DNA of 64,000 bases from Salminus brasiliensis (taxonomy: Eukaryota; Chordata; Actinopteri; Characiformes; Bryconidae). The notes beneath the pieces are model-generated. The model saw only the letters and a list, made by a program, of their open reading frames with translations, made no database searches and was not told the origin of the DNA. The translations under genes were made by a program, and so were the position numbers. This document shows positions 23-40,075 of this stretch, piece after piece (the first letter of the stretch is position 1; every line of letters starts with the position of its first letter). The stretch is from NCBI RefSeq assembly GCF_030463535.1, contig NC_132901.1, positions 1,841,636 to 1,905,635 of the forward strand. The letters are read 5' to 3'.

Positions 23-2631
23 GTGAGAATGGTCTTCTTTTAAACTCAGATTCTACAGCTGCTGGAATCCTAGAAAGCTCAGGTAACACCATCAGATCAT
101 GTAGGTATTATATAAAGGTCAGTTGACTTGGAACACAAAAAACAACAAGCTTGGAGATTTATCTCCAATTACCATTTCATTAACTTGTTTAAATTAAACA
201 GCTAATCCAAATGTATTGAATTGAAATGTATTCTTTAATTTAGTTGTAAAAATGATTGGTAAAAAAGGTGTTGTGATTAATAGCAATATACTTTCATTAC
301 ATTTTCAGATTTTTTTCTAATATAATTAAAAGTGATCTAAAATAAGGGAATGCCAATAGTTTTGTTCAATAGTTTACTCAGTATTTAATAGACTGCACTG
401 GTGTACAATATAAAGTCCAATTTACTGTTTTGAAGTTTTTTTGAAAATAATAAGGCTGAAATAATAAATATCCATGTTGATTTACAGCGCAGGGGCATTA
501 ATTTTGTTTTTCTACATCTCTGTTTAAATATTTGTTTAAACTGTGGACTTGAGAGCACTAATGCAATATTTTAATTGTTTCAGAAAATGAAGAGTATGAA
601 ATTCCAGGTAACTTAGAACATGATTTTACATTATTTCTAATTGCATTGTAAACAAAATTGTAAAAAGTAAAATGTAATTGCAATGGCAATTTTACAATAT
701 TTTACAATAATGGCAATTTTACAATAATATATATTGTCACAATGTATATCATTGTTTATTATGATAATTAGCAACTGTAAATGTTATTAAATATATTCAT
801 TTTTTATATTAAAAAAATATAATAAGTAATGAGTTCAGTTTTTTAGCATTGTTTTTCAGTGCAAGGTTTTTTTTTACAAACATAAAATAGCCAAAAATGC
901 TTGCTATTCTATACATATTACGAAATATTTATTGGAATAATGTATCATTTCCAGAAAATTAGACATGTGATATAGGTATTTATGGTATTTTACTGTTACA
1001 GAAACTGTTTTCAACTTTTTCTATAATGTCATGTTTTGACCTTAAAATGTACAGACATTTCTACAATGTAGGGTCTTCACCTTGAAAATGTAGTTATTTT
1101 CAATAAAACTTGAATATTGACTTTCAGATAAAATCCTTTAAATGCTCCAAAAGAGACTAAATAACAAACTGTATTTTTCTCATTTCAGAAACAGCTGACA
1201 AAGCAACAAATACAGAAGAAGAAATTCCAGGTAAATTTTAGCATACCTTTGGTAGTATATTCATGTCAGAAAAAAAAAATCTACTTTTTAGATTTTGTGT
1301 TAATTCCCTTTTTCGTTTGCAGACTGGGGAAAGATGCTTGCATGTAAAGGTAAAACACAGACACAGTATACATTATACCTAATAAATAAACATAGAGAAT
1401 TGACATTTTACAGCTGAAAGAACCTCATGGGGATATCACAGTACAGGTTTAAGAAATACAGTACTTACAAATACTTACAAATCGCCACATTTGGTGTGTA
1501 ATACTCACAGATCAGCCACTGACTAAAAGTGGGTCAAAACTATTGGTTCCTGTCAAGGGGTGTATATATTAGGCAACAAGAGAACAGTCAGTTCTTGAAG
1601 GTGACTGAAGGTGTAGAAGTGTCGACAAGAACCAAACTGTGAGGTTCTAGACCTCAGAACATAGGTCGGAACATCTCCAAAAATCAGGAAGCAGGTCTTG
1701 TGGGGCGTTCCCGGTATACAATGGTCAGTACCAACCAAAAGTGCTCGAAGGAAGGACAACCAGTGAACCGGTGACAGACTCATGGACACCTAAGGCTAAC
1801 TGATGCTCATGGAGGTCCCACCCACCTCACAACCTACAGGACTTAAATTATCTTCTGCCAATATTGGTTAGTCTTGGTGCCTTAGATACCACTGGACACC
1901 TTAAGAGGTCTTGTGGAGGCCATGCCTTGAACGGTCAGATCTGCTGTGTCGACCCCAAGAGGGATCTTCTCAATATTAGGCAGCATTAGGCTAATGTTAT
2001 TATAATGTATAATGTTTATCTTTCTGTAAATATAAATGTCATTTTGGTGGGTTTTTTCACAGTTGCTATCAGACCAGACGCATCAACTACAGGTTTTCTG
2101 GAAGTTGGAAAGAGTCAGACTAGAGTGACGTGTAAATCCATCACTAATGAGGCAGAGCTTGTTCACGTCCTGGGTAAAGAGAGAATCCGCTCAGGGCGGT
2201 ACTACTGGGAGATAACGGCACTGACAGAACCTCCACCTGCTCCAAAGATAGGCAAGTCCTACGAATGTCCATCATCCTGGTACGTTGGGGTGACCAGTGA
2301 AGCAGCTGAGAAAAAGAGCAGAGTTCCTCTAACTCCACAGTACAGCTACTGGGTTCTTCACTACGATAAAGAGAGAGGGTACTACGTTAATGATCCCTCT
2401 CTGACCAATGTTCTAGTGAGAGATCGGTTCTCTAAGCTGGGAGTGTTTCTAGATTGTGTGAAGAACAAGCTCTCTTTTTACGACTGTGATAAAAAGTCCC
2501 ATCTCTACACCTTCTATAACGTAGATTCTACCAAACCACTGGTTCCAGTTTTAAGTCCTGGAGAGAAACTTCAACACACACTTGTGATATGTGAAGAACA
2601 GTGTGTCACATGTGATGAACTTTATGCATGA
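23..2631 (+). CDS. Butyrophilin-like protein with B30.2 domain, 3' end only (BTN-L0)
   Basis: This is the last part of a gene that begins before the window. Exons by splice sites and phase: 23-82, 584-607, 1189-1230, 1323-1349 and 2063-2631. All internal exons are multiples of three with phase 1-1 borders. The first exons give a short acidic linker (NEEYEIP, TADKATNTEEEIP). The 27-nt exon gives DWGKMLACK, the small exon that precedes the B30.2 exon in BTN-L2 too. The last exon (about 188 residues, stop at 2629-2631) is a full PRY-SPRY domain: PRY part with RPDASTTGFLEV, then GRYYWEI, SWYVGVTSE, WVLHYDKERGYY and LGVFLDC. B30.2 domains of butyrophilins and TRIMs sit in the cytoplasm and bind ligands. 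The Ig and membrane exons must lie upstream. An AATAAA at 3201-3206 is a possible poly(A) signal. It is intact as far as seen. The family is clear, the exact member is not. Confidence 0.87.
1507..2001 (+). mobile_element. Internally deleted Tc1/mariner-like transposon in BTN-L0 intron
   Basis: The stretch starts with a GATCAGCCACTGAC-type end and finishes with AGGCTAATGTTAT. Between them are collinear relics of a fish Tc1-like transposase gene: CAGGTCTTGTGGGG, GTATACAATGGTCAGTACC, AGGAAGGACAACCAGTGAACC, then a jump to CAACCTACAGGACTTAAA and GAGGCCATGCCTTGAACGGTC. The middle (catalytic) part is missing. Related relics occur at 32690-33060, 33330-34120, 35226-35460 and 43315-43530. It lies inside the last intron of BTN-L0. 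Confidence 0.75.
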
Positions 2632-5911: not shown

Positions 5912-8900
5912 ATGCTTGTTCTATTGGTGATGTTTGATCTTCTCACTTCTTCAAATGCAGGTCATTCACCACACCAAGCTTATCTTCAACTCTTTACATT
6001 TTAAAACTTAAATGTTAAACCTGATGTAATCTAAAAACGTACACAGAAATGTTTGGAAATAACGTGTTCCTCTTTTAGAAACCTTCTCTTTGGTGGTTCC
6101 TGATGGTGCTATATCAGGACAGTTGGGATCTTCAGTGGTCCTACCCTGTGCACTTTCTCCTTCACTGGACTGTACTATGGACTATGAAATACATTGGTAT
6201 CGTTCCAATGACAAGGACAATCCAATTCTAGTGTACAAAGATCTCCAGGTCCAGGAGAGGTCTGGTCAGTATAAAGGCAGAGTGGATCTGGTTGGGGATC
6301 TGCAGAAAGGGAATGTCTCTCTGAAGCTGGAGGACCTCACACTAGCAGACCGAGGAGAATATGTCTGCTATATTCACAGTCATGAATGGTATGAGAAGGC
6401 CAGCGTTTTCTTCACCATTCCAGGTGAGGAAACGTTTTCATCATTTTTTTTTGTACAGTGTACAAAATCAGTGTCATCCCCAACACATTCAATGATGTTG
6501 AGGTCTGAACTCTGAGGTGGCCAGTCCATAGCTCTGAGAGATGTTTACTTTTTCTAAATAAGAACATCTTTATCAGTCAGCTCCTCATCCACATTTGGGA
6601 ATGTTTCGAGATCTGAAGCTGTTACACGGCCATTATTTGTTTAAGGTTCATTGACCTGTTGGTTTGGACTTTTCCGTCTTTATACTTGTGGATCATCTTC
6701 TTATCTGATCAGCTCAGAACCTCAGAATTTCCTAACAAATAATGAAAAGGTCCTTCAAAGGCCATTTTGGAAAATGTTAATGTATTTGGTGTGAAATAAC
6801 AAACAAACCTACTTTACACTCTACTAGTGGTTGGATCTCCTCCTCGCCTCTCGCTGGTTGAAGCTAAAGACCAGTTGAATGTTACCTGCACATCAAATGG
6901 TTGGTCACCAAACACCACCCTCATCTGGAGAGACAAAGGAGGAGAACTCAGGAACAGTGTTGATCACTTCACAGTAGGTTAGTAATCATGGTTCAACAGG
7001 TGTAAAGTGTGAAGTCTCACCAGTTTAACAGTTCTTAGATGGACCTAATTCCCCCCTCATATCCCCCCTCACTCCCTCCAATCAGACTCTGAAGGGTTGG
7101 TAAGTGTGAGCTCCTGGTTGCTCGTCTTGCCCTCAGAGTCAAAGTGGATCTCCTGTTCTGTGGGTTTATCCAATCAGGAGATGAAAGAGGGAAAAGTGCT
7201 GCTACTGATTCCTGATTCTGGAACTCTTCACCCAGGTAAATCTCATGAGGTTAAAGAGCACATTCTCACATTCTACATTCCAGTGTAGTTTTACTATGTA
7301 CAGATTACAGCATTCTTTATACGTAGCCTCCATTGCAATGCACCACACTGACGCTAGCGCTAACCTTATATTTGACTAGGATGGATCGCCTTCATCACCT
7401 TACTGGTCATCACATTGTTGGCTTTTACTATAATGGCAATCATCTGCATCCCCAAAATCAGAGGTATGAAATGTCCAGTTATCAGCGGATCCTTCAGTCC
7501 TAATCAGAACCTTTACATTTTATTGTCAAAATCTAATGTCTGACATTTGCTGCCATTCAGGCCCAAAAGGTCCAACGGCCACATCGACAGGTGAGATTCA
7601 GTAGGCTGCATCTAGTCAAATCAATAGATTGAAGAAATCAATCAATATAACATCAAACAGAAGGCTGCATTTATTGCTGTATTAACAATGAAGAAATTGA
7701 TATTTTCTTTTTTTCTTATGATCCTCCAGAACAAGAAGAACTCCCTCTTATTAGTAAGTACATTTCAGTAACACTCTAACCCTAACTGTTATACTGCATT
7801 TTCGATCTTGCTTTAATGCAATTTATTATTGGGTTGTGTTCCTGTTCCGGTAGGTTAATCAGTGAACTCTTTGCCAAATTTTGCAGTGCATTTATAAAAA
7901 TGGCTACATTTCCACAATTAGAAGCTGCTTAATAACTGAGTGCAAACATGGCTAGCTAGTAGTAATATGGAAAATTGCTGCATTTCCAAAGTCAAATTCA
8001 CTGTCGCAAGGATGAACAGTCTCTGAAATGGTCTGAATGGTTTGAAAGAAGCTAACCATGAAGAACCCATGAAGAACATATAACCCATCCTTTCTTTCGT
8101 AGTGTTAATGTTAAGCCTGTTTTTTCTGCAGGTCCAGAAACAGTTTATAAACAAACAAGTACAGATAAAGAAACACAAGGTATTTTGAAATAATAAAAAA
8201 ATGGTCGTAATTGTGGCTTGTGCAAACGTTCAGAGACCCTGCTAGGTCAGCACTAAGTAATACCTCATTTGGCAGATATTGAAGCTTACAACCTCTTTTG
8301 TTAGAAAAGATTTGTTCATGAGATATAAATGAAATGTTTATTTATGAATGTCATATTTTAAAGGAAATGTCAGCCCTCCACTATCCCCAGAACCTACTGT
8401 GAGAGAAAAAATAAGAGCTTATGAATTCGCTCAGACCTCAGGTAACAGTATTTATGAGAAATTCAGTTGAACAAGAAATCATTTCTACAGTAATTTCTTT
8501 ACCATCCAGACACAAATTTGAATTATAAAACTGTCCAAAAACACAGACAAATCTATATTAGATTATTTATCTATGATTGTAATATTTTAAAGGTGAGTTC
8601 AGTCCTCAACCATTGCCTGTTTCTACTGTGAGAGAAACAAACACAGCTGATGGATCCACTCACACCTCAGGTAACAGTATCAGATACAGTGCATGTTATT
8701 ATATAAACACCAAAACATGAATAAAACACTTCTAAAACAAAGAAATACTGTCATGATAACTGTCCAAAATATTTGGTATATGGTGTATCGAGATAATGTT
8801 AAGCCTGTTTTTTCTGCAGGTCCAGAAACAGCCTATAAAGAAACAAGTACAGATAAAGAAACACAAGGTATTTTAAAATAATTTAAAAAATGGTCGTAAT

Positions 8901-11900
8901 TGTGGCTTGTGCAAACGTTCAGAGACCCTGCTAGGTCAGCACTAAGTAATACCTCATTTGGCAGATATTGAAGCTTACAACCTCTTTTGTTAGAAAAGAT
9001 TTGTTCATGAGATATAAATGAAATGTTTATTTATGAATGTCATATTTTAAAGGAAATGTCAGCCCTCCACTATCCCCAGAACCTACTGTGAGAGAAAAAA
9101 TAAAAGCTTATGAATTCGCTCAGACCTCAGGTAACAGTATTTATGAGAAATTCAGTTGAACACAAAATCATTTATACAGTAATGGCTTTGCCATCTAAAA
9201 ACAGATTTTAATTATAAAACTGTCCAAAAACACAAAAAAAATCTATATTAGATTATTTAGCTATTATTGTAATATTTTAAAGGAGAGTTCCCCACTCCAC
9301 CATGTCCTGTTTCTACTGTGAGAGAAACAAACACAGCTGATGGATCCACTCACACCTCAGGTAATAGTATCAGATACAGTGCATGTTATTATATAAACTC
9401 CAAAACATGAATAAAACACTTCTAAAACAAAGAAATACTGTCATGATAACTGTCCAAAATATTTGGTATATGGTGTATCTGAATGTTAAGCCTGTTTTTT
9501 TCAGCAGGTCAAGAAACAGCCCACAAAGAAACAAGTACAGATAAAGAAACACAAGGTAACAGTCTGAATTTACAGAATTTAATAAAATTTGGTTATGGCC
9601 CACAACATACTCATGATATGGAACATTGCTGCGTTCCTGAAAGCAAATTCACTGTTACAAGGATGAACAGTCTCTGAAATGGTCTGAATGGTTTGAAAGA
9701 GCCATGAAGAACCATGAAGAACATTTAACCCATCCTTTAATCCTCAGTGCATACAATTGTATTGCAGAAGTTTGGGCACCCCAGCCAAACAATGTCTTTT
9801 GTTGATTTTTGTTGATCCAAATTAGGTAGAAAAAGGGTAAAAAAACAGAAATTAAATGTAAAAATAATCGGAATTGTGGCTTGTGCAAATGTTCAGAGAC
9901 CCTGCTAAGTCAGTAATTCCCCATTTGGGAAATATTGAAGCTTGCAAACTCATTTGGTAGCTGAGATCATTTGTAACAGGTAATAGTATTGATTGGAAAT
10001 ACAGTTCACCTTCTGTCCTTTACTGTTCTTCATTTCAAATATACAATACAGCATTGTATAAATATACATATATATTTATATGTATATGTATATTTATTTA
10101 TTCATGGCTTTACCATCTAAACACAAATTTAGAATTTTATTATAACACTGTCCAAAAACATAAAAAGAAATCTGTATCAGATTGTTTATCTATGATTGTA
10201 ATATTTTAAAGGAGAGTTCAACCCTCCATCATTGCCTGATTCTACTGTGAGAGAAACAAACACAGCTGATGGATCCACTCACGCCTCAGGTAATAGTATC
10301 AGATACAGTGCATGTTATTATATAAACTCCAAAACATTAATAAAACACTTCTAAAACAAAGAAATACTGTCATGATAACTGTCCAAAATATTTGGTATAT
10401 GGTGTATCGAGATAATGTTAAGCCTGTTTTTTTCAGCAGGTCCAGAAACAGTTTATAAAGAAACAAGTACAGATAAAGAAACACAAGGTAACTCAACACC
10501 GTTTGAATTTACAGAATTTAATAAAATTTGGCTAATAAAGCAATGATAAACTTTGGGTTATATACTTCCTCATTACTATGATTTCATTTAAATTACATAT
10601 TATTAATCAAAATGTAATAAATGCATGTGGTATGCATTTATTACATTACACTATTACACTGTTTAACTTCAAACATACAGTCCAGTCTGTTGCAAGTATC
10701 TTATATATTAAAGAACGGCCTCAAGAAATAATTTCTACAGTAATGGCGTTACCATCTAGACACAAATTCAGAATTTTAATTATAAAACTGTCCAAAACAA
10801 AAAAAACAAATCTGTGTAAGGTTATTTATCTATTATTATAATATTTTAAAGAAGAGTTCACCCCTCCACTATGTCCTGTTTCTGAATGACCGTACGCTTC
10901 CATACACCTGCAAATTCAGCTACTTACTTCACACTCTGGCCTTTGGTACACCCATTAATACCTGCTTTGTGACCCATTTTCCATACATTACTAAATAATA
11001 TCATATTTGGCAGATATCGCAGCTTGCAAACTGTTTTGGTAGCTAAGATCATTTTGTTCATGAGATTGTGTATTTATGAATGTCATATTTTAAAGAAAAT
11101 GTCAGCCCTCCACCATGCCCAGTTCCTACTGTGAGAGAAAGAAAACAAGCTTTTGAATCCACTCAGACCTCAGGTAACAGTATTTTGTTGGACATACAGT
11201 TCACCTTCTGTCCTTTACTGTTCTTCATTTTAAACTTACAATCCAGCCGGTTGCAAGTATCATATATATTGAAGAAAGGCCTCAAGAAATCATTTCTACA
11301 GTAATTTCTTTACCATCTAGACACAAATTTGAATTATAAAACTGTCCAAAAACACAGACAAATCTATATTAGATTATTTATCTATGATTGTAATATTTTA
11401 AAGGTGAGTTCAGTCCTCAACCATTGCCTGTTTCTACTGTGAGAGAAACAAACACAGCTGATGGATCCACTCACACCTCAGGTAATAGTATCAGATACAG
11501 TGCATGTTATTATATAAACTCCAAAACATGAATAAAACACTTCTAAAACAAAGAAATACTGTTATGATAACTGTCCAAAATATTTGGTATATGGTGTATC
11601 TGAATGTTAAGCCTGTTTTTTTTCAGCAGGTCAAGAAACAGCCCACAAAGAAACAAGTACAGATAAAGAAACACAAGGTAACAGTCTGAATTTACAGAAC
11701 CTAATAAAATTTGGTTATGGCCCACAACATACTCATGATATGGAACATTGCTGCGTTCCTGAAAGCAAATTCACTGTTACAAGGATGAACAGTCTCTGAA
11801 ATGGTCTGAATGGTTTGAAAGAGCCATGAATAACCATGAAGAACATTTAACCCATCCTTTAATCCTCAGTGCATACAATTGTATTGCAGAAGTTTGGGCA

Positions 11901-14900
11901 CCCTGACCAAACAATGTCTTTTGTTGATTTTTGTTGATCCAAATTAAGGAGTAAAAGGGTAAAAAAACAGAAATTAAATGTAAAAATAATCGGAATTGTG
12001 GCTTGTGCAAATGTTCAGAGACCCTGCTAAGTCAGTAATTCCCCATTTGGGAAATATTGAAGCTTGCAAACTCATTTGGTAGCTGAGATCATTTGTAACA
12101 GGTAATAGTATTGATTGGAAATACAGTTCACCTTCCGTCCTTTACTGTTCTTCATTTAAAATATACGATACAGCATTGTATAAATATACATATATATATT
12201 TATATGTATATGTATATTTATTTATTCATGGCTTTACCATCTAAACACAAATTCAGAATTGTATTATAAAACTGTCCAAAAACATAAAAAGAAATCTGTA
12301 TCAGATTGTTTATCTATGATTGTAATATTTTAAAGGAGAGTTCAGTCCTCCATCATTGCCTGATTCTACTGTGAGAGAAACAAACACAGCTGATGGATCC
12401 ACTCACACCTCAGGTAATAGTATCAGATACAGTGCATGTTATTATATAAACACCAAAACATGAATAAAACACTTCTAAAACAAAGAAATACTGTCATGAT
12501 AACTGTCCAAAATATTTGGTATATGGTATATCGAGATAATGTTAAGCCTGTTTTTTCTGCAGGTCCAGAAACAGCCTATAAAGAAACAAGTACAGATAAA
12601 GAAACACAAGGTATTTTAAAATAATTTAAAAAATGGTCGTAATTGTGGCTTGTGCAAACGTTCAGAGACCCTGCTAGGTCAGCACTAAGTAATACCTCAT
12701 TTGGCAGATATTGAAGCTTACAACCTCTTTTGTTAGAAAAGATTTGTTCATGAGATATAAATGAAATGTTTATTTATGAATGTCATATTTTAAAGGAAAT
12801 GTCAGCCCTCCACTATCCCCAGAACCTACTGTGAGAGAAAAAATAAAAGCTTATGAATTCGCTCAGACCTCAGGTAACAGTATTTATGAGAAATTCAGTT
12901 GAACACAAAATCATTTATACAGTAATGGCTTTGCCATCTAAAAACAGATTTTAATTATAAAACTGTCCAAAAACACAAAAAAAATCTATATTAGATTATT
13001 TAGCTATTATTGTAATATTTTAAAGGAGAGTTCCCCACTCCACCATTGCCTGTTTCTACTGTGAGAGAAACAAACACAGCTGATGGATCCACTCACACCT
13101 CAGGTAATAGTATCAGATACAGTGCATGTTATTATATAAACTCCAAAACATGAATAAAACACTTCTACAACAAAGAAATACTGTCATGATAACTGTCCAA
13201 AATATTTGGTATATGGTGTATCGAGATACTGTTAAGCCTGTTTTTTTCAGCAGGTCCAGAAACAGCCTATAAAGAAACAAGTACAGATAAAGAAACACAA
13301 GGTAACAGTCTGAATTTACAGAATTTAATAAAATTTGGTTATGGCCCACAACATACTCATGATATGGAACATTGCTGCGTTCCTGAAAGCAAATTCACTG
13401 TTACAAGGATGAACAGTCTCTGAAATGGTCTGAATGGTTTGAAAGAGCCATGAAGAACCATGAAGAACATTTAACCCATCCTTTAATCCTCAGTGCATAC
13501 AATTGTATTGCAGAAGTTTGGGCACCCCAGCCAAACAATGTCTTTTGTTGATTTTTGTTGATCCAAATTAGGTAGAAAAAGGGTAAAAAACAGAAATTAA
13601 ATGTAAAAACAATCGGAATTGTGGCTTGTGCAAATGTTCAGAGACCCTGCTAAGTCAGTAATTCCCCATTTGGGAAATATTGAAGCTTGCAAACTCATTT
13701 GGTAGCTGAGATCATTTGTAACAGGTAATAGTATTGATTGGAAATACAGTTCACCTTCTGTCCTTTACTGTTCTTCATTTCAAATATACAATACAGCATT
13801 GTATAAATATACATATATATTTATATGTATATGTATATTTATTTATTCATGGCTTTACCATCTAAACACAAATTTAGAATTTTATTATAACACTGTCCAA
13901 AAACATAAAAAGAAATCTGTATCAGATTGTTTATCTATGATTGTAATATTTTAAAGGAGAGTTCAACCCTCCATCATTGCCTGATTCTACTGTGAGAGAA
14001 ACAAACACAGCTGATGGATCCACTCACACCTCAGGTAATAGTATCAGATACAGTGCATGTTATTATATAAACTCCAAGACATGAATAAAACACTTCTAAA
14101 ACAAAGAAATACTGTCATGATAACTGTCCAAAATATTTGGTATATGGTGTATCGAGATAATGTTAAGCCTGTTTTTTTCAGCAGGTCCAGAAACAGTTTA
14201 TAAAGAAACAAGTACAGATAAAGAAACACAAGGTAACTCAACACCGTTTGAATTTACAGAATTTAATAAAATTTGGCTAATAAAGCAATGATAAACTTTG
14301 GGTTATATACTTCCTCATTACTATGATTTCATTTAAATTACATATTATTAATCAAAATGTAATAAATGCATGTGGTATGCATTTATTACATTAGACTATT
14401 ACACTGTTTAACTTCAAACATACAGTCCAGTCTGTTGCAAGTATCTTATATATTAAAGAACGGCCTCAAGAAATAATTTCTACAGTAATGGCGTTACCAT
14501 CTAGACACAAATTCAGAATTTTAATTATAAAACTGTCCAAAACAAAAAAAACAAATCTGTGTAAGGTTATTTATCTATTATTATAATATTTTAAAGAAGA
14601 GTTCACCCCTCCACTATGTCCTGTTTCTGAATGACCGTACGCTTCCATACACCTGCAGATTCAGCTACTTACTTCACACTCTGGCCTTTGGTACACCTAT
14701 TAACACCTGCTTTGTGACCCATTTTCCATACATTACTAAATAATACCATATTTGGCAGATATCGCAGCTTGCAAACCGTTTTGGTAGCTAAGATCATTTT
14801 GTTCATGAGATTGTGTATTTATGAATGTCATATTTTAAAGAAAATGTCAGCTCTTCACCACGTCCAGTTCCTACTGTGAGAGAAAGAAAACAAGCTTTTG

Positions 14901-17544
14901 AATCCACTCAGACCTCAGGTAACAGTATTTTGTTGGACATACAGTTCACCTTCTGTCCTTTACTGTTCTTCATTTTAAACTTACAATCCAGCCGGTTGCA
15001 AGTATCATATATATTGAAGAAAGGCCTCAAGAAATCATTTCTACAGTAATTTCTTTACCATCTAGACACAAATTTGAATTATAAAACTGCCCAAAAACAC
15101 AGACAAATCTATATTAGATTATTTATCTATGATTGTAATATTTTAAAGGAGAGTTCAACCCTCCATCATTGCCTGTTTCTACTGTAAGAGAAACAAACAC
15201 AGCTGATGGATCCACTCACACCTCAGGTAATAGTATCAGATACAGTGCATGTTATTATATAAACTCCAAAACATGAATAAAACACTTCTACAACAAAGAA
15301 ATACTGTCATGATAACTGTCCAAAATATTTGGTATATGGTGTATCTGAATGTTAAGCTTGTTTTTTTCAGCAGGTCAAGAAACAGCCCACAAAGAAACAA
15401 GTACAGATATAAAAACACAAGGTAACAGTCTGAATTTACAGAACCTAATAAAATTTGGTTATGGCCCACAACATACTCATGATATGGAACATTGCTGCGT
15501 TCCTGAAAGCAAATTCACTGTTACAAGGATGAACAGTCTCTGAAATGGTCTGAATGGTTTGAAAGAGCCATGAATAACCATGAAGAACATTTAACCCATC
15601 CTTTAATCCTCAGTGCATACAATTGTATTGCAGAAGTTTGGGCACCCTGACCAAACAATGTCTTTTGTTGATTTTTGTTGATCCAAATTAAGGAGAAAAA
15701 GGGTAAAAAAACAGAAATTAAATGTAAAAATAATCGGAATTGTGGCTTGTGCAAATGTTCAGAGACCCTGCTAAGTCAGTAATTCCCCATTTGGGAAATA
15801 TTGAAGCTTGCAAACTCATTTGGTAGCTGAGATCATTTGTAACAGGTAATAGTATTGATTGGAAATACAGTTCACCTTCTGTCCTTTACTGTTCTTCATT
15901 TAAAATATACGATACAGCATTGTATAAATATACATATATTTATATGTATATGTATATGTATACTTATTTATTCATGGCTTTACCATCTAAACACAAATTC
16001 AGAATTTTATTAAAAAACTGTCCAAAAACATAAAAAGAAATCTGTATCAGATTGTTTATCTATGATTGTAATATTTTAAAGGTGAGTTCAGTCCTCAACC
16101 ATTGCCTGTTTCTACTGTGAGAGAAACAAACACAGCTGATGGATCCACTCACACCTCAGGTAATAGTATCAGATACAGTGCATGTTATTATATAAACTCC
16201 AAAACATGAATAAAACACTTCTAAACAAAGAAATACTGTCATGATAACTGTCCAAAATATTTGGTATATGGTGTATCGAGATACTGTTAAGCCTGTTTTT
16301 TTCTGCAGGTCCAGAAACAGTTTATAAAGAAACAAGTACAGATAAAGAAACACAAGGTAACTCTACACCGTCTGAATTTAGAGAATTTAATAAAGTTTGG
16401 CTAATAAAGCAATGATAAACTTTGGGTTATATACTTCCTCATTACTATGATTTCATTTAAATTACATATTATCAATCAAAATGTAATAAATGCATGTGGT
16501 ATGCATTTATTACATTACACTATTACACTGTTTAACTTCAAACATACAGTCCAGTCTGTTGCAAGTATCTTATATATTAAAGAACGGCCTCAAGAAATCA
16601 TTTCTACAGTAATGGTGTTACCATCTAGACACAAATTCAGAATTTTAATTATAAAACTGTCCAAAACAAAAAAAAAATCTGTGTAAGGTTATTTATCTAT
16701 TATTATAGTATTTTAAAGAAGAGTTCACCCCTCCACTATGTCCTGTTTCTGAATGACCGTACGCTTCCATACACCTGCAGATTCAGCTACTTACTTCACA
16801 CTCTGGCCTTTGGTACACCTATTAACACCTGCTTTGTGACCCATTTTCCATACATTACTAAATAATACCATATTTGGCAGATATTGCAGCTTGCAAACCG
16901 TTTTGGTAGCTAAGATCATTTTGTTCATGAGATTGTTTATTTATGAATGTCATATTTTAAAGAAAATGTCAGCTCTTCACCACGTCCAGTTCCTACTGTG
17001 AGAGAAAGAAAACAAGCTTTTGAATCCACTCAGACCTCAGGTAACAGTATTTTGTTGGACATACAGTTCACCTTCTGTCCTTTACTGTTCTTCATTTTAA
17101 ACTTACAATCCAGCCGGTTGCAAGTATCATATATATTGAAGAAAGGCCTCAAGAAATCATTTCTACAGTAATTTCTTTACCATCTAAACACAAATTTGAA
17201 TTATAAAACTGTCCAAAAACACAGACAAATCTATATTAAATTATTTATCTATGATTGTAATATTTTAAAGGTGAGTTCAACCCTCCACCATTGCCTGTTT
17301 CTACTGTGAGAGAAACAAACACAGCTGATGGATCCACTCACACCTCAGGTAATAGTATCAGATACAGTGCATGTTATTATATAGACTCCAAAACATGAAT
17401 AAAACACTTCTAAAACAAAGAAATACTGTCATGATAACTGTCCAAAATATTTGGTATATGGTGTATCGAGATACTGTTAAGCCTGTTTTTTCTGCAGGTC
17501 CAGAAACAGCCTATAAAGAAACAAGTACAGATAAGGAAACATAA
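5912..17544 (+). CDS. Butyrophilin-like receptor with amplified microexon tail, no B30.2 (BTN-L1)
   Basis: Type I membrane protein of the butyrophilin/MOG Ig family. Exons: 5910-5960 (ATG 5912; signal peptide [16 protein letters not shown]), 6079-6423 (IgV; Cys in VVLPC, Trp in EIHWYR, DRGEYVC), 6828-6977 and 7086-7235 (IgC split in two; Cys in NVTC and WISC), 7380-7463 (transmembrane [15 protein letters not shown]), 7561-7590, 7730-7753. Then come repeat exons, 48 nt at 8132, 8820, 9508, 10440, 11630, 12563, 13254, 14185, 15374, 16309, 17498, and 78 nt at 8364, 8593, 9053, 9283, 10212, 11096, 11404, 12336, 12796, 13026, 13957, 14841, 15149, 16082, 16963, 17271. All junctions are phase 1. If every exon is used the frame is open for 868 codons and stops at TAA 17542-17544, a CAA-to-TAA change in the last 48-nt exon. 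Residues: IgV 17-131, IgC 132-231, TM 232-259, tail 278-868. The usual C-terminal B30.2 is lost (relic at 18194). It could be a functional tail-only receptor or a young pseudogene; the ectodomain is fully intact. Confidence 0.78.
9768..9875 (+). mobile_element. MITE-like piece with TTTGGGCACCCC end, copied with the modules
   Basis: The segment AGAAGTTTGGGCACCCCAGC followed by CAATGTCTTTTGTTGATTTT lies in an intron. It recurs at about 11888-11990, 13511-13615 and 15629-15735. It predates the module duplications. The family was not determined. Confidence 0.5.
10611..10647. repeat. Perfect 16-bp-arm hairpin, three copies
   Basis: AATGTAATAAATGCAT and its exact reverse complement ATGCATTTATTACATT are separated by five bases (GTGGT). 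Identical copies are at 14356-14392 and 16480-16516, carried by the B modules. It sits in an intron between the 48-nt exon and the disrupted microexon. Confidence 0.85.
10852..10990 (+). pseudogene. Type E microexon broken by a transposon fragment (three copies)
   Basis: After TTTTAAAG the sequence follows the type E exon (GAGTTCACCCCTCCACTA...GTTTCT, with one A/G change at the border). After 10886 it switches into GAATGACCGTACGCTTCC, which is part of the Tc1-like element seen at 17570-18005. The 3' half and donor of the exon are gone. The same breakpoint occurs at 14597-14740 and 16719-16860, so the insertion happened once and was then multiplied with the B module. These copies cannot be spliced normally and are left out of the BTN-L1 model. 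Confidence 0.75.
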
Positions 17545-17569
17545 GGTAACTCAACACAGTCTGAATTTA

Positions 17570-18005
17570 CACTACTGGACAAAGTTCTGCTGGTACAGTG
17601 CAGTGAGTGTCTCGTTGGATAAGTCACAAGGCAGATGTTAATGATTGGCTGTAGTGTCAAGGACATAGCCGAATCTGCAGATGTATGGAAGCGTACGGTC
17701 ATTCTGGTCTACCAGCAGTGGCAAAAGTCTTAGCCTACAATACATTCTCGTCAGTTTTGTTTGAAAGACCATCAACATATGAAGCAGAGTGGCTCACAGG
17801 AAGCCTATGCTCACTTCTGTTGAAAGAATGACCAGACTGAGGAGAACTGGGATTTCTGCCACTGCTGGTAGACCCGAATGACCGTACGCTTCCATACACC
17901 TGCAGATTCAGCTACTTCCTTCACACTTTGGCCTTTTGCACACCTATTAACACCTGCTTTGTGACCCATTTTCCATACATCCAACGAGACACTCACTGCT
18001 TTGTT
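17570..18005. mobile_element. Inverted pair of Tc1-like transposon fragments downstream of the last microexon
   Basis: On the + strand 17590-17735 and on the - strand 17845-18000 are two diverged copies of the same coding fragment, facing each other. Shared words include GAGTGTCTCGTTGGAT, GCGTACGGTCATTC and GTCTACCAGCAGTGGCA. The minus copy encodes a helix-turn-helix-like piece ([20 protein letters not shown]), typical of the N-terminus of Tc1-type transposases. No complete transposase is present. The insertion occupies the place where the small exons before the B30.2 exon would be expected. Confidence 0.65.
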
Positions 18006-18193
18006 CCACCTCTTCTAATCTAATAATAAAAGGTAATAATAGACAAATTCAGGACTGAACAATTCAGCAATTCAGCTACATTTCCTGTAACACCAAGAAC
18101 TCACCAAGTATAGAGTGCTAGTAATGGCTTAAATATTCTTTTACATTCTTTTATTTTCTTAATCTGTTTTAATTGAATCATTTTTTTCTCCAG

Positions 18194-18320
18194 TGGCCAT
18201 CAAGCCAGATTAATCAGAGTCTGATCTGGGCGTCCTGTTTAAAGAAAGAATGAGAGAAGGACGGTATTACTGGGAGGTGACTGGATTGACTGGATTAAAA
18301 GTTCCTACTGCATGTTCCAG
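18194..18320 (+). pseudogene. Truncated B30.2 exon relic of BTN-L1
   Basis: After a good acceptor (TTTTTTTCTCCAG) the sequence aligns without gaps to the start of the BTN-L2 B30.2 exon at 29164: VAIK, then LGVLFKERMREGRYYWEVTG. Codon 7 is TAA, where BTN-L2 has CTA. The homology ends near 18315, so roughly three quarters of the domain, including SWYVGV and LGVFLDC, is deleted. The relic shares the shortened PRY region of BTN-L2. Confidence 0.85.
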
Positions 18321-19690: not shown

Positions 19691-20420
19691 TCTACCCAGC
19701 AACACATATCACTTCTCTGTTCTGATTGGCTGCCTTGCGTTGAGAGCGGTGGGAAATTAACCAATGATCAACCGTAACTGTAAAATCAACCACTAACAGA
19801 GAGACTACACAAAAAGTCTACCCAGCAACACATCTCACTTCTGATTGGCTGCCTTGCGCTAAGAGCGGGAAAATTAACCAACGGTTCAACTTACTGTAAA
19901 TCAACCGCTAACAGAGAGGCCAGACCGAAAGTCTACCCAGCAACACATCTCACTTATGATTGGCTGCTTTGCAGGACGCGGGAAATATGAACCAATGACC
20001 GAGCGCAACTGTAAAATCAACCACTAACAGAGAGACTACACAAAAAGTCTACCCAGCAACACATCTCACTTCTGATTGGCTGCCTTGCTGAGAGCGGGAA
20101 AATTAACCAACGGTTCAACTTACTGTAAATCAACCGCTAACAGAGAGGCCAGACCGAAAGTCTACCCAGCAACACATCTCACTTATGATTGGCTGCTTTG
20201 CAGGACGCGGGAAATATGAACCAATGACCGAGCGCAACTGTAAAATCAACCACTAACAGAGAGGCTACACAGAAAGTCTACCTAGCAACACACCCAAGTT
20301 CTGATTGGCTGCCTTGCTGAGAGCGGGAAATATGAACCAATAACTGAGCCACGATGGTGAATCAGCCGCTAACGGAGAGGCCAGACCGAAAGTCTGCCCA
20401 GCAACACATCTCAAATAGGC
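19691..20420. repeat. Tandem array of about 115-bp units with CCAAT and E2F-like boxes
   Basis: Unit marks (TCTACCCAGCAACACA) start at 19691, 19817, 19932, 20048, 20161, 20277 and 20393. Spacings are 126, 115, 116, 113, 116 and 116, and units two apart are more alike than neighbours. Most units contain TGATTGGCTG (inverted CCAAT), a GCGGGAAA word (E2F-like) and a forward CCAAT or CCAAC. The order is CCAAT-E2F-CCAAT about 20-45 bp apart, as in cell-cycle promoters. A similar word pattern (CTCTGTTCTGATTAGCTGCC) at 59480 suggests the unit may come from a dispersed element. Confidence 0.85.
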
Positions 20421-23190: not shown

Positions 23191-26100
23191 ATGCTTGTTT
23201 TACTGGTGATATTTGATCTTCTCACTTCTTCAAGTGCAGGTAATTCACCACACCTTATAAGACATGTTTAATGTTTTAATGTGAAATTAAAAACTTTAAG
23301 AACAAAAAAATTCTGTCTCTGTTAGACACCTTCTCTCTGGTGGTTCCTGATGGCTCTCTATCGGCACAGTTGGGATCTTCAGTTGTCCTGCCCTGTGCAC
23401 TTTCTCCTTCACTGGACTCTAAGGACTACGAAATACGCTGGTATCGTCCGAACAACGAGGACAACCCAGTTCTTCTGTACAAAGATCTACAGGTCCAGGA
23501 GAACGCTGGACATCCCCAGTACAGGGGCAGAGTGTCTCTGGTTGGGGATCTGCTGAAGGGGAACGTCTCTCTGAAGCTGGAGAACCTCACACTAGCAGAC
23601 AGAGGAGAATACGTCTGCTTTGTGAGCAGTTATAAATGGTATGAAAAGAAAAGTGATTTCCTCACCATTCCAGGTAAGACGTCATTTAACATACAGGAAG
23701 AGTACAAATAATGTACTAGCCATTTAGCCATGAAAACCTCTTATGGATACACTTTGTTCACCTTGCTCTGTTCTCTTCGATTAATGGAAAGACAACCCCA
23801 ATTGGACCACCACTGACCAGATATTATTTGAATGGTGGTTAATTCTCATCAGATAGATATTTTGGGATCACCATCAAACTTAGCAGTGACATGAATCTGT
23901 ATAAAAACCCCAGCAGCATCACTGTACCTGATACACTTGCACTAGCGCCATGCATAGACTTCAGTGAACACTACCATATCGTTGTCACTGCTGTGCTGAG
24001 AACCAACCATAAACCCAGTAATATCTGGTCAGCGGGTCAATTCATTTCCAACCAGCAAGCGCAGAAGAATAATAAACAAAAACAGCCCCCCCCTCGAATA
24101 CAGAATACATTTTTTAACAGAAAAGGACCCAGAGGCCTTGACATCTAACCCTAATATCAGACTGGAGTGTTTGGAGCTCCAATTTTTCAAGAGACTTACT
24201 TTCAGTGTTTCTGTAGAAATCTGCAGGAGGTCTTTGAAACTCTTTGAAGTCTGGACTGACTTGTCTGTTTGCTTTTCTCTGTGAGAGCTTCTTGATCAGC
24301 TCCACACAGCAGAGGGATGGACACAAACACCTCTGAATGTTTCAAGACCTGAATTGTAATCTCACATTAAAACAAATAACTTTTTTTTGCCTGTTTTGAC
24401 TGGAAATTAAATGAAGAATGAAGTCCCAGACTTTTGCAATATATTGAATATTGAACAAACCTTCTTTACACCAGTGGTCGGATCACCTCCTCTCCTCACA
24501 TTGGGTGATGTTGGAGACCAAGTGAACATTACCTGTGAATCTGGTGGATGGTCACCAAACACCACCCTCATCTGGAAAGGCAAAAGAGGAAGAGAACTCA
24601 GGAACAGTGTTGATCACTACACAGTAGGTTAGTTAATACTGTTTTGATGTTCTGAAATGGAAACCATCGCCTAGCTGTGTTACAGGGTATAGTCCAGAGA
24701 TTATGATAGTTAAATAAAACCTAGATAAAACCTAAAAAACAGTTTTACACTTTGTAAGGACTTACTCAACAATATATAGCAGTATATAGCTTTTATAATG
24801 GCTCTCAGTGGCTCCCAGGCAGTCCAGAGCAGGGTTGGATGTTTTTTTCTTTTTTTTTAAGGTCCATGCAAACCAATTTGTAAACCACTGCTGTGGAGAA
24901 TTTGCCAAAAAGTAATTTTGCTACCTTTAGCCGATGTGAACCCTACCCCTCACTTCCCCTCACTCTCTCTGCTCAGACTCTGAAGGCTTGGTGAGTGTGA
25001 GCTCCTGGCTGATGTTCTCTCCCACTGGGTCAGAGTGGATCTCCTGTTCTGTGGGCTTATCTGATCAGGAGATGAGAGAGGGACGAGTGCTGCTATTTAA
25101 ACCTGCTTCTGCAACGCTTGAACCAGGTAAGTCTCATGCCAATCATTCTTTGTTTTTTTTATTATTGTTATTATTTTACCACTAACACCATATTATATCT
25201 GTTATATCAGGAGTTTCTCCAGGATGGATAGCCTTCATCATCTTACTGGTAATCAGTCTGTTGGTATTGGCACTTCTCATCACCCCCAAAATCAGAGGTA
25301 AGAAATGTTGACTTATGAGTGAATCCTTCAGCTCTAATTAGAAGATTAACGATATGATTTCTTTTGGAATATAGGCCAGATTTTGCCAAAACATCAAAAG
25401 GCGACACCAACAGGTGAGACTTGGTTTCGAGTTGTGGCTAGGTTGCTTCTTCAGCATCAAATCATAAAGATTTCAGAAAGCAAAACACCACTGGATTTAT
25501 TTCACAAAACAACTACTTATAAAATATATATATTTTTATTTGTATCTTTTTTTATGGTCGTTTAGAAGAAGAAGCACATCCTTTTGTTGGTGAGTAGATT
25601 TGGATAACAGCCATATCATTTCACTGCATTTTCACCATTCTTTAAATGTCATTATTTTTGGGGGGATATTTTCACATTGTTACTTTAATTTGATGGATTC
25701 CTTGGCTGGGGCTAAATGAATGCTATTTAATTTAAAGTGTGGGAAATCTAGTTCACTTCCTTTACTGTTCTTTACTGATCTTTAATTCACATCTATAAAC
25801 CAACCTGTTGCAAGTATTATATTGAGGAATGGCCTCAAAAAATCATTTCTACAGTAACGGCTTTACCATCTAAACACAAATTCAGAATTCTAATGGTAAA
25901 ACTGTCCAAAAACAGGAAATCTGTATTCATCTATAACTGTAATATTTTAAAGCAGATTTCAACCCTCCACCCTTCCCAGTTTGTACTCTGAAAGAAACTA
26001 ACACAGCTGAGGAATCCACTCAGACCTCAGGTAACGGTATCAGATACAGTGCACTTCATTACACTTGAAATTCTCAAGTATTATTGAACACGTAACCCAT

Positions 26101-29100
26101 TTAGTAATCTTATGTACATACCACACATGAAAACGTTGTTGTTTTTAGCTGATTTTTGTTTTTAAAATGACTGTTTTTAAAATGCATATATTTCTGCAAA
26201 ATATGAACCCTCCCTAACTAATTTGTCTCCTTTGTGAGGAGGGTAATTTAATAATTGTCCTACACACAGGACTTTCAAGTTTGTTTATAAATGCATGTGT
26301 AAATGTCCTCATCAGGCCTTGACTGGGGCTAAATGAATGATATTTACTTTAAAGGAGAGGTCAGTCCTCAATCAAGTCCAGTTTCTACTGGGAGAGAAAT
26401 AAACAGAGCTGATGGAGCCACTCAGACCTCAGGTAACAGTGTTTATTGGAAATGTAGCTCACCTCCTTTACTGTCCTTTATTTCACATCTACACTGTCAG
26501 TCTTTCTTGTTGCAAGATAATATTGAATAACAGCCTTAAAAATAATTTCTACAGTAACGGCTTTACTATCTAAACACAAATTCAGAATTTTTATGATAAA
26601 ACTGTCCAAAAACAGGAAATCTGTATTCATCTATAACTGTAATATTTTAAAGGAGATTTCGACCCTCCACCCTGCCCAGTTTGTACTCTGAGAGAAACTA
26701 ACACAGCTGAGGAATCCACTCAGACCTCAGGTAACGGTATCAGATACAGTGCACTTCATTACACTTGAAATTCTCAAGTATTATTGAACACGTAACCCAT
26801 TTAGTAATGTTTTGTACATAACACATATGAAAATGTTGTATTTTGCTGATTTTTGTTTTTAAAATAATTTGTCTCCTTTGTGAGGAGGGTAATTTAATAA
26901 TTGTCCTACACACAGGACTTTCAAGTTTGTTTATAAATGCATGTGTAAATGTCCTCATCAGGCCTTGACTGGGGCTAAATGAATGATATTTACTTTAAAG
27001 GAGAGGGCAGTCCTCAATCAAGTCCAGTTTCTACTGGGAGAGAAATAAACAGAGCTGATGGAGCCACTCAGACCTCAGGTAACAGTGTTTATTGGAAATG
27101 TAGCTCACCTCCTTTACTTTCCTTTACTGTTCTTTGATTCACATCTATAAACCAACCTGTTGCAAGTATTATATTGAGGAATGGCCTCAAAAATAATTTC
27201 TACAGTAACGGCTTTACCATCTAAACACAAATTCAGAATTTTAATGATAAACTATCCAAAAAAAAAAAACAGGAAATCTGTATTAATCTATAACTGTAAT
27301 ATTTTAAAGCAGATTTCAACCCTCCACCCTGCCCAGTTTGTACTCTGAGAGAAACTAACACAGCTGAGGAATCCACTCAGGCCTCAGGTAATGGTATCAG
27401 ATACAGTGCACTTCATTACACTTGAAATTCCCAAGTATTATTGAACATGTAACCCATTTAGTACCCATTTATGTTTTGTACATACCAACATGAAAGCGTT
27501 GTTGTTTTTAGCTGATTTTTGTTTTTAAAATGACATAAAAATTGCTAAAAATGCATATATTTCTGCAAAAATATGAACCTGGACTTTCAAGTTTGTTTAT
27601 AAATGCATGTGTAAATGTCCTCATCAGGCCTTGACTGGGGCTAAATGAATGATATTTACTTTAAAGGAGAGGTCAGTCCTCAATCAAGTCCAGTTTCTAC
27701 TGGGAGAGAAATAAACAGAGCTGATGGAGCCACTCAGACCTCAGGTAACAGTGTTCATTGGAAATGTAGCTCACCCCCTTTACTGTCCTTTACCTGTTGC
27801 AAGTATCATGTTGATGAATGACCTAAAAATATATATATATATGTTATATGTATTTATATAAATATATATGCATTTTTGTCTGAGAACATAAATGTGTATG
27901 TAAATTATTTTCTTTGAACGTCACATTTTAAAGGTTCACGCCTTTATCAAGTCCAGTTTCTACTGTCAGAGACAGAGAGAGCATCTTAGAAGTTGACATT
28001 TATGAGACATAATAATTTTAATATCAAAGCCATTATAGGCAAATTCAGTACTGAGACATTCAGCAGTGAACGCTCCCAGTTGATAAAACAAAGAGGAAAA
28101 AAAGGGATATGATCATTGTGTGATGATTGTGTGATGAATGTTAAAGGCGAGTTCGACCCTCCACCCTGCCCAGTTTGTACTCTGAGAGAAACTAACACAG
28201 CTGAGGAATCCACTCAGACCTCAGGTAACGGTATCAGATACATGTGTAAATGTCCTCATCAGGCCTTGACTGGGGCTAAATGAATGATATTTACTTTAAA
28301 GGAGAGGGCAGTCCTCAATCAAGTCCAGTTTCTACTGGGAGAGAAACTAACACAGCTGAGGAATTCACTCAGGCCTCAGGTAACGGTATCAGATACAGTG
28401 CACTTCAATATAGAGACACCAATACATTAATAAAAGAGTTTAAACCAAAGAAAGTTTCTAATGTGTTTCATACAAGCAATTTTGATGGAACATTTAAAAG
28501 GTAACGTTAAGATTAAAGATGTGCGTTTTATCCATCTGATCCAGAAACAAGCTAACTATGTAGCCTTCTTGCATTTTACAGCTGCATGTTTAACATCCCT
28601 GATCACCCAAAAATATATATAAAAATATGAAATTATTAGGACTAAAATATAATACATGCTGTTTATCCTAAAGGACAGTTCAGCTCTGCATTAAGCTTCT
28701 CAGCTTCTGCTCAGAGAGAAATCCCCAGAACTGATGCTGCCCCTCCGACCCGAGGTATCACCATCACATAAATCACTGCAGTTCTAAAGTCCTTCATTCC
28801 TGCTTTTGGTCTGATTTTCTGAATCACAGGAAAATATCTTTTCACACTAACATGAATTTTTCTTTAAACAGCCTCAGAAAGAAGGGCCAAAGAATTAAAT
28901 GCAGAAGGAAATGCAGGTAAACGTTCATCCGTCCTTCACGTGTTTGTTTCCATTAGTAGAACATTTTTATACCAAAAACTGATTCACTCCTTCTGTTTCT
29001 AAACCACCTCTTTTGTCCAGACTGGGACAAGATGCTCGACTGCAGAGGTAAGAAAGGCAATATTCTGCCTCCCCCAACTCTCTGCAGAAACCCCATTATT

Positions 29101-29642
29101 AATAACCAGCATTCTTTTACTTTCTGAATCTGCTGGTTTAAATTTGCTGTATTTTTTTTTCAGTGGCCATCAAGGCAGGTCTATCAGATCCTCATCTGGG
29201 CGTCCTGTTTAAAGAGAGAATGAGAGGAGGACAGTTTTACTGGGTGGTGACTGGACTGACAGGATCATCAGCTCCTGCTGCATCACTCAGCAAGTCTGTA
29301 CCATATCAATGTCCAAACTCCTGGTATGTTGGTGTAATCAGTGAGACGGTGATGAAGAGCAGAGTTCCTCTGACTCCACAGAACAGCTGCTGGGTTCTTC
29401 ACTATGATAAAGAGAACGGGTTCTATGTTAATGATCCCTCTCAGACTCCGGTTCTAGTGAGAGATCGGTTCACTAAGCTGGGAGTGTTTTTAGACTGTGA
29501 GAAACACACACTGTCGTTTTATAGCCATGATAAACGGTCCCATCTCTACACCTTCTATAATGTAGACTCTACAGAACCACTGGTCCCAGTTGTGTTTCCT
29601 GGACTCAAACCTAAATATTCACTTGAAATATTAAATGCCTGA
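23191..29642 (+). CDS. Butyrophilin-like receptor with repeat exons and B30.2 domain (BTN-L2)
   Basis: Exons: 23189-23239 (ATG 23191, signal peptide MLVLLVIFDLLTSSSA), 23326-23673 (IgV; VVLPC, EIRWYR, DRGEYVC), 24475-24627 and 24977-25126 (split IgC; NITC, WISC), 25211-25297 (transmembrane WIAFIILLVISLLVLALL), 25375-25413, 25566-25589. Eight 78-nt repeat exons start at 25953, 26355, 26653, 27001, 27310, 27667, 28147 and 28302. Then come 28872-28916, 29021-29047 (DWDKMLDCR) and 29164-29642 (SPRY; FYWVV, SWYVGV, WVLHYDKENGFY, LGVFLDC). Without the problematic exon at 28674 all parts join in phase 1 to an open frame of 674 residues. SPRY is residues 516-674, with the N-terminal PRY part about 23 residues shorter than in BTN-L0. 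It probably acts at the surface of immune or epithelial cells, with a cytoplasmic sensor domain, by analogy with butyrophilins. Confidence 0.88.
25953..28379 (+). repeat. Alternating 78-nt repeat exons of BTN-L2
   Basis: Type A exons (25953, 26653, 27310, 28147) read DFNPPPCPVCTLRETNTAEE then STQTS. Type B exons (26355, 27001, 27667) read E(V/G)SPQSSPVSTGREINRAD then GATQTS. They alternate A-B-A-B-A-B-A. The eighth exon (28302) is a chimera, with the first half type B and the second half type A. Introns are about 280-360 bp except the last, only 77 bp (28225-28301), as expected if an unequal crossover fused units. All use the TTTTAAAG or CTTTAAAG acceptor. A decayed copy is at 27934-27990. 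Confidence 0.87.
27934..27990 (+). pseudogene. Decayed 78-nt repeat exon
   Basis: After CATTTTAAAG the words ATCAAGTCCAGTTTCTACTG and a degraded AGAGACAGAGAG match a type B exon. The start is rearranged, the second half is lost and there is no donor in place. Confidence 0.6.
28674..28755 (+). pseudogene. 82-nt repeat-like exon with a frame problem (BTN-L2)
   Basis: AAAG acceptor, QFSSALSFSASAQREIPRTD, then a run of five C and the donor CCGAG|GTATC. The length of 82 is not a multiple of three, unlike all other tail exons, so including it shifts the B30.2 exon out of frame. A single extra C at about 28739-28744 explains it. Either the exon is skipped, or the run is polymorphic or a sequencing error. 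Confidence 0.55.
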
Positions 29643-38775: not shown

Positions 38776-39360
38776 TAGTTTGTTTGGCACAAGTTTGACG
38801 GCACGTTGTTGAGAAAGTCAAGGTGGATGGCCTTTCTAAGCGTGCTAGCATGTGAGGTGCCCATATATACAGTATGTCCTCTATGTCTTCTTCTTATCCT
38901 CGCTAAAGAGCCTCTTGTCCCGGCGCCCGGCGGTCCACCCCATTAGCTCTGCCTCTCAGGCGCGAGGGAAAATTCATCATCCTGAGCGAGCGGCGGGACA
39001 CTCTAACCACCGGGAGAGGGAGCGGGAAATAAATAGAATTTTACAAGCATGATAAATGCTTTTTATTGCCTTCCATGTTCGACGCCATCATTCAACCATT
39101 CAACCTATGGACTATTCTCAGACATTACAAATCGCCCCCTGCTTACAAAACACCCCGACACACCGGTGCGCCGATGGCAGCGCTTCAGCCACCGCACTGG
39201 ACGGCCTGCTTAGAGCTACAACACGCTAGTTTAGATCATTCAGAGATTAATGAACCCCACGCTAACTCCATGTCATCCACGTTTAGCAGGATCAACAAGA
39301 GCCAAGCAGCCAAGGCAAGGTCTTTGTGCTGCGGCTATGAGGCTAAAGTAGCTTGCTAAC

Positions 39361-40075
39361 ATTTAATGGACGCTTCTAGCTAGGCGAAATCGTCATACGC
39401 TCCCCTCAGAACTTGTGGAGGTGTTCCGTAATCTCTGATTCTTGCAGTTAGCACCATGCTAGCACCATGATAATGAGCTTCCATGACAACAAACATGCCT
39501 TCCACTTTAGCAAGAGCGACAAAACAGCCCAAAAGCCAAGGCAAGGTCTTTATGCTGGAGCTACGAGGCTAAAGGCTAAAGTAGCTCGCTAGCATTTAAT
39601 GGACGCTTCTAGCTAGGCGAAATCGTTATACGCTCCCCTCAGAACTTGTGGAGGTGTTCCGTAATCTCTGATTCTTGCAGTTAGCACCATGCTAGCACCA
39701 TGATAATGAGCTTCCATGACAACAAACATGCCTTCCACTTTAGCAAGAGCGACAAAACAGCCCAAAAGCCAAGGCAAGGTCTTTATGCTGGAGCTACGAG
39801 GCTAAAGGCTAAAGTAGCTCGCTAGCATTTAATGGACGCTTCTAGCTAGGCGAAATCTTCATACACTTCCCTCAGAACTTGTGGAGGTGTTCAGTAATCT
39901 CTGATTCTTGCAGTTAGCACCATGCTAGCACCATGATAATGAGCTTCCATGACAACAAACATGCCTTCCACTTTAGCAAGAGCGACAAAACAGCCCAACA
40001 GCCAAGGCAAGGTCTTTGTGCTGGAGCTACGAGGCTAAAGTAGCTAGCTAACATTTAATGGACACGCTTAGCCAC
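39361..40075. repeat. 233-bp tandem repeat, about three units
   Basis: ATTTAATGGACGCTTCTAGC-type marks begin at 39361, 39594, 39827 and 40053 (spacings 233, 233, 226). Units include GTTAGCACCATGCTAGCACC and TTAGCAAGAGCGACAAAACA. Diverged single copies lie at 40320-40560 and 42070-42260. No coding frame is kept across units. Confidence 0.9.

Follow-up and report, generated by a model that had tools for sequence, protein, structure and literature searches.

A multiplied array of phase-1 exons after the transmembrane segment of a butyrophilin gene in Salminus brasiliensis

A stretch of 64,000 nucleotides (nt) from the genome of the characiform fish Salminus brasiliensis (assembly GCF_030463535.1, contig NC_132901.1, positions 1,841,636 to 1,905,635 of the forward strand; hereafter the window, with coordinates counted from its first letter) holds part of a tandem cluster of butyrophilin genes. 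In one of them, gene B, the transmembrane segment is followed by an array of 27 short exons (8132..17545, plus strand), which is real at the level of DNA and represents exon multiplication in a butyrophilin gene. By its predicted domains (immunoglobulin V-type, IgV; immunoglobulin C-type, IgC; transmembrane), gene B is a type I membrane protein of the butyrophilin family. The explanation favoured here with moderate confidence is that crossing-over expanded symmetric linker exons, which would give the receptor a length-variable, disordered cytoplasmic tail instead of a B30.2 domain. The original prediction stood as to family, exon counts, phase and frame, and had missed a broken B30.2 exon, a second array in the downstream gene C, and low-copy relatives of the array exons in the upstream genes A, D and E.

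Exon model and predicted protein of gene B

The gene B model comprises 34 coding exons on the plus strand, seven 5' exons and the 27 of the array, which are read through 868 codons and then TAA. Exon 1 encodes a signal peptide (5912..5960; spliced-frame translation, 16 codons with 87.5% amino acid identity to those of gene C) and is followed by the IgV exon (6079..6423; Pfam V-set, 6.1e-16). The IgC domain is split over two exons, as in gene C, the first half lying at 6828..6977 (Pfam C2-set_3, BTN3A2-like, 3.2e-10, and frame translation) and the second at 7086..7235 (Pfam match and frame translation). The transmembrane exon (7380..7463) contains a hydrophobic stretch with KIR after it, and two linker exons of 30 nt (7561..7590) and 24 nt (7730..7753) were placed by frame translation. 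The butyrophilin-like identity that had been proposed is borne out by these domains and by matches of the ectodomain in the PDB to BTN1A1 (4hh8, 3.1e-27), BTN2A1 (1.8e-25) and CD276 of the wider B7 group (2.2e-25). The gene thus has the IgV followed by a BTN-type IgC, the single type I transmembrane segment (hydrophobic exon; the BTN2A1 match reaches query residue 259) and the short linker exons after it, with related exons in genes A, C, D and E; of B30.2, which most members carry although it is not obligatory, a fragment is left.

Exon borders, translation and profiles agree on the array itself, which consists of eleven 48-nt segments (starting at 8132, 8820, 9508, 10440, 11630, 12563, 13254, 14185, 15374, 16309 and 17498) and sixteen 78-nt segments (starting at 8364, 8593, 9053, 9283, 10212, 11096, 11404 and 12336, then at 12796, 13026, 13957, 14841, 15149, 16082, 16963 and 17271), all on the plus strand, bordered by AG and GT, and amounting to 1,776 nt. 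Entry and exit are in phase 1 in 27 of 27 exons. The TAA stop (17542..17544, plus strand) lies within the final 48-nt exon, where the remaining ten copies have CAA. In the 78-nt exons the used frame is never interrupted (0/16), and either alternative frame is stopped in all sixteen. Of the eleven 48-nt exons, one (the last) contains a stop in the used frame, likewise just one in the next frame and ten in the third, so that the openness of such short exons is in itself weak evidence; among single-base changes in the array exons, only 4–5% would create a stop. Chance-open AG..48/78..GT segments are moreover common elsewhere (0.66–1.89 per kb), and the case therefore depends on 27 homologous copies and not on 27 independent events; the argument that so long a frame would be hard to obtain by chance had counted duplicates as independent.

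Under the 50–55-nt rule of nonsense-mediated decay, degradation of the gene B transcript is not expected, since its TAA is 1 nt upstream of the last predicted junction. Downstream, a fragment of a B30.2 exon with the end of its upstream intron (18144..18313, plus strand; acceptor before 18194) is 80% identical to positions 29110-29283 of gene C. Splicing into this fragment, whether from the last array exon or from the preceding 78-nt exon, gives VAIKPD and then a stop; as either junction stops after six codons, gene B would end with its array. A fold-back element resembling a miniature inverted-repeat transposable element (17591..18008; self inverted repeat, fold z -18.1) lies between the array and the fragment. 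A remnant of the 27-nt exon that precedes B30.2 in the other genes was sought between 17546 and 18194 and rejected, nothing beyond chance matches of 7–9 nt being present.

The array encodes 591 residues, in keeping with the Thr/Ser/Glu-rich tail of about 590 that had been announced (T 18.6%, S 12.2%, E 11.7%, P 10.8%), with a net charge of -41 and ILVMFYW making up just 13.4%. The tail falls on the disordered side of the charge-hydropathy line and is probably disordered; the type I layout would place it in the cytoplasm. A scan of it for signalling motifs gave no immunoreceptor tyrosine-based inhibitory (ITIM) or switch (ITSM) motif and no YxxPhi, YxN or PPxY. PxxP (14 against 7.5 in shuffled sequences) and [ST]xx[DE] (62 against 29.5) are frequent, both counts being inflated by the repeat copies; there is one acidic dileucine match, EELPLI, close to the membrane, and PEST-type segments are few and modest (top score 7.8, with an in-house short script).

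Duplication history and constraint

The array copies sit in nested tandem and block duplications, introns included. Three types of unit can be distinguished: type I (48-78a-78b, 688–691 bp), type II (48-78b, 931–935 bp), which is without the first 78-nt exon, and type III (48-78c-78b, 1189–1190 bp); their order is I I II III II I II III II III, with a closing 48-nt exon at the 3' end. The newest step is a block duplication of 3.7 kb, in which units 2-5 (8820..12562) are 98.7% identical to units 6-9 (12563..16308), with 3692 of 3740 aligned bases identical, 48 mismatches and 6 gap events. Units 7-8 and 9-10 are 97.4% identical (2060/2116). Each of the three type III units holds one dead half of a 78-nt exon (10842-10883, 14587-14628 and 16709-16750, plus strand; profile positions 1-42, E 3.9e-7 each), which runs into a 105-nt piece of the fold-back element (10884-10988, 14629-14733 and 16751-16855); these pieces mark the duplication history. 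Exons have thus been gained, lost and broken, as the missing 78-nt exon of type II and the half exons of type III indicate.

In trees of the two-exon modules, a fully supported split parts the six copies of gene B from the three of gene C. When single exons are used instead, all four types group by kind, strong support being confined to the first gene B type (78a and 78c). Likeness between B and C modules is 76–80% in the module-internal intron, 71–83% in the exons and 51–61% in the flanking introns (8/9 modules). This pattern may reflect separate amplification in each gene from a shared two-exon module, or homogenisation within genes. Genome-wide DNA searches with gene B queries returned at least 11 hits for the 48-nt exon, at least 21 for 78b (dead halves account for two) and at least 6 for 78a, counts that are lower bounds, and all of them fall in the B and C arrays. 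Together with the low-copy relatives upstream, this suggests that the gene B array probably arose by amplification of older linker exons.

What has been conserved in the course of these duplications? Between genes B and C, the ratio of nonsynonymous to synonymous substitutions (dN/dS) is 0.44 in the ectodomain (213 codons, dS 0.33). Alignment of the two-exon modules of both genes (7 of the 9 modules, one B and one C module being left out) placed all 12 distinct gap intervals in introns and none in exons (crude P 0.0006). Exon gap intervals number 0 in all seven alignments and intron ones 4–18, the P values of the remaining six being 0.24–0.48 for the three unit types, 0.055 for the 78b set, 0.035 for the gene C repeats and 0.008 for the 48-nt set. 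The 48-nt exons have a dN/dS of 0.43 and 21% variable columns against 58% in their flanks (flanks that are partly non-homologous across unit types), and they appear to be under some sequence constraint. In the gene C array, 3.8% of exon columns vary against 11.9% in introns; dN/dS of its 78-nt types is 1.3 between and 2.2–2.9 within types. Selection on the sequence of the 78-nt exons, purifying or positive, is not claimed, as dN/dS is about 1 or above and non-significant: in seven representative exons, Fisher p exceeded 0.05 in 21 of 21 pairwise comparisons (lowest 0.077). Frame and length look more constrained than motifs, as for a disordered spacer.

Known systems and competing explanations

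The original prediction had suggested that exon multiplication might be an undescribed way of growing a receptor tail. The principle is already known from the BG genes of the chicken, members of the butyrophilin family in the MHC B region, whose tails are described as having, in the same place, 13–36 small exons that measure 21 nt or sometimes 24 nt; fourteen genes contain 358 of them, a mean of 26 (PMC4046983). The codon for the first residue of each is divided into one and two bases (phase 1), and the stop lies in the penultimate exon or at the start of the last (PMC5938342). Gene B and these chicken genes, as described there, have in common a post-transmembrane tail of many small phase-1 exons, a tandem gene cluster, a late stop and a layout without intact B30.2, and the exon number of BG genes varies. 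They differ in that BG proteins have one V domain and no C, whereas gene B has both, and in that the BG exons, given as 21 (sometimes 18 or 24) nt, form a heptad coiled coil, whereas the 48- and 78-nt exons of gene B encode hydrophilic units of 16 and 26 residues rich in T, S, E and P, and a B30.2 fragment persists. The mammalian BTN1A1, BTN2A1 and BTN3A resemble gene B in their IgV-IgC-transmembrane order with short exons after it, and BTN3A2 is likewise without B30.2; unlike the array of gene B, what is described from the transmembrane segment to B30.2 in macaque and human butyrophilins is several very short 'heptad' exons (PMC6790196). No fish array of this kind was found in the titles and abstract openings of the open-licence papers listed, which is weak evidence. 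As far as the literature searched shows, what is new here relative to chicken BG is the exon unit, the likely disorder and the lineage.

Under the favoured explanation, unequal crossing-over between intron repeats would both expand and contract the array and, as all exons are phase 1-1 and have lengths divisible by three, gain, loss or skipping of exons would keep the frame. The tail of up to 591 array residues would then act as an acidic, disordered, probably phosphorylated cytoplasmic spacer or scaffold replacing B30.2, and selection would preserve the length and frame of the exons more than their precise sequence. Several observations weigh against this. The exon model is predicted from DNA sequence alone, and the acceptors of the 78-nt exons are pyrimidine-poor (tattttaaag). 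In gene B, these exons are not clearly above introns in conservation (78b: 15% against 19% variable columns; B-C modules: 31% in exons, 30% in introns), and their dN/dS is 0.97 within 78b, 0.97 within 78c and 1.95–3.5 between types, as would be expected from neutral drift. A 48-kind exon was not recognisable in gene D with profiles built from gene B only, and gene E offers two weak 48-like exons (E 0.011 and 0.086). Loss of B30.2 and a stop within the final microexon could be signs of early decay in gene B. Neutral drift of a failing gene indeed remains a real rival, albeit an unlikely one, in which B30.2 broke first, the tail was freed from constraint and harmless symmetric repeats accumulated, the long frame being a recent relic. 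The B30.2 fragment, the position of the stop, the 78-nt exons diverging about as fast as introns, their dN/dS of about 1 or higher and the 1.3% divergence of the newest duplication all fit such a course. Against it stand the open Ig exons with their dN/dS of 0.44 (a value that also covers the gene C branch and any period before function was lost), the gap-free exons and the ratio of 0.43 in the 48-nt ones, and also gene C, where an array coexists with an open B30.2, so that amplification does not need the loss of that domain.

Less probable again is that the array is mostly spliced out, weak acceptors making most microexons cryptic and the usual product short-tailed. The pyrimidine-poor acceptors agree with this, as do non-consensus donors and the frequent exon skipping described for macaque BTN3A transcripts (PMC6790196), but acceptors of the same type (tactttaaag/tattttaaag) are also found in front of 78-kind exons in genes A and C, whose frame, predicted too, continues to an open B30.2. 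Over-assembly of repeat units is very improbable, despite the near identity of units 2-5 and 6-9 across 3.74 kb and the precedent of chicken BG0, whose 3' end was formerly mis-assembled (PMC4046983): 48 substitutions and 6 gap events separate the two blocks, the locus is spanned by a 29-Mb contig in an assembly whose 1.07 Gb fall into 103 contigs, a second and diverged array is present in gene C, and 17 microexons would be left even if units 6-9 were removed.

The cluster holds three states: B30.2 is accompanied by low-copy linkers or by eight to nine copies, and 27 copies occur without it. Taken with chicken BG, these states suggest a tendency of butyrophilin tails towards growth by phase-1 exon multiplication. 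A wider proposal is more doubtful and is put forward tentatively: fish butyrophilins may repeatedly, and independently of birds, make expandable phase-1 arrays, that of gene B having replaced B30.2 with a copy-number-variable, splice-tunable disordered tail as a selected trait. Did the array come first, or the loss of B30.2? This order of events becomes testable in related species.

Neighbouring genes and wider distribution

Genes A, C, D and E share 78-kind exons with gene B and, unlike it, all four keep a B30.2 match. Gene C (23191..29642, plus strand; open frame of 701 codons, SPRY 2.1e-13) has an array at 25953..28754 (plus strand) of eight 78-nt exons of two alternating types (at 25953, 26355, 26653, 27001, 27310, 27667, 28147 and 28302), followed by an 81-nt relative at 28674, exons of 45 nt and 27 nt, and B30.2. 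A decayed fragment of a 78-nt exon was also observed in this gene, at 27925-27978 (E 6.2e-7). The 45-nt exon was considered as a relative of the 48-nt exon and rejected, its DNA match being unconvincing.

The 3' end of gene A (23..2631, plus strand; SPRY 1e-13) contains one 78-like exon of 60 nt (weak, E 0.022), a 24-nt exon, one 48-like exon of 42 nt (E 5.4e-7), a 27-nt exon and B30.2. This gene extends upstream of the window, with matches to IgC, transmembrane segment and B30.2, and an IgV was not recognisable in the approximately 4.2 kb before its IgC. Evidence for genes D and E comes from profiles restricted to the exons of gene B, scores from profiles that contain sequences of A, D and E being circular for D and E. 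They identify a single 78-nt exon in gene D (E 1.8e-14) and, in gene E, besides its two 48-like exons, one 78-like stretch (E 3.9e-11) with GG instead of GT at its donor. In genes A, C, D and E alike, the B30.2 match is preceded by a 27-nt exon (DW.KM). Four further IgV exons, as well as gene A's IgC exons, lie within 60 kb upstream of the window. Two genes farther upstream than D, E and A gave no convincing array-exon match in the profile search; two weak plus-strand matches in the upstream stretch (E 0.033 at 48.8 kb and 0.066 at 56.4 kb) lie outside any interval from transmembrane segment to B30.2.

A protein search of the genome with the IgV of gene C gave at least 76 matches (150 of 242 candidates scored), six of them within the cluster. 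Array exons were examined in the DNA of this cluster and of three further genes out of these 76 matches; in these three butyrophilin-like genes elsewhere on the contig (23.87–23.89 and 15.16 Mb), profiles including the A, D and E sequences gave no match below E 0.29. Relatives of the array were absent, as expected, from the prokaryote and viral contigs scanned.

Beside the butyrophilin cluster, the minus strand at 32226-32664 carries two stretches that look like exons of an FRG1 gene (Pfam FRG1, 6.3e-16 and 1.1e-9). Tandem repeats occur between genes B and C (19751-20413, period about 116/229 bp) and at 37227-37585 (42 bp x8.5) and 39340-40040 (233 bp x3), and a 14-nt unit (ACACTGTTACTGAT) forms a tandem array of about 125 copies at 62332-64000, reaching the end of the window.

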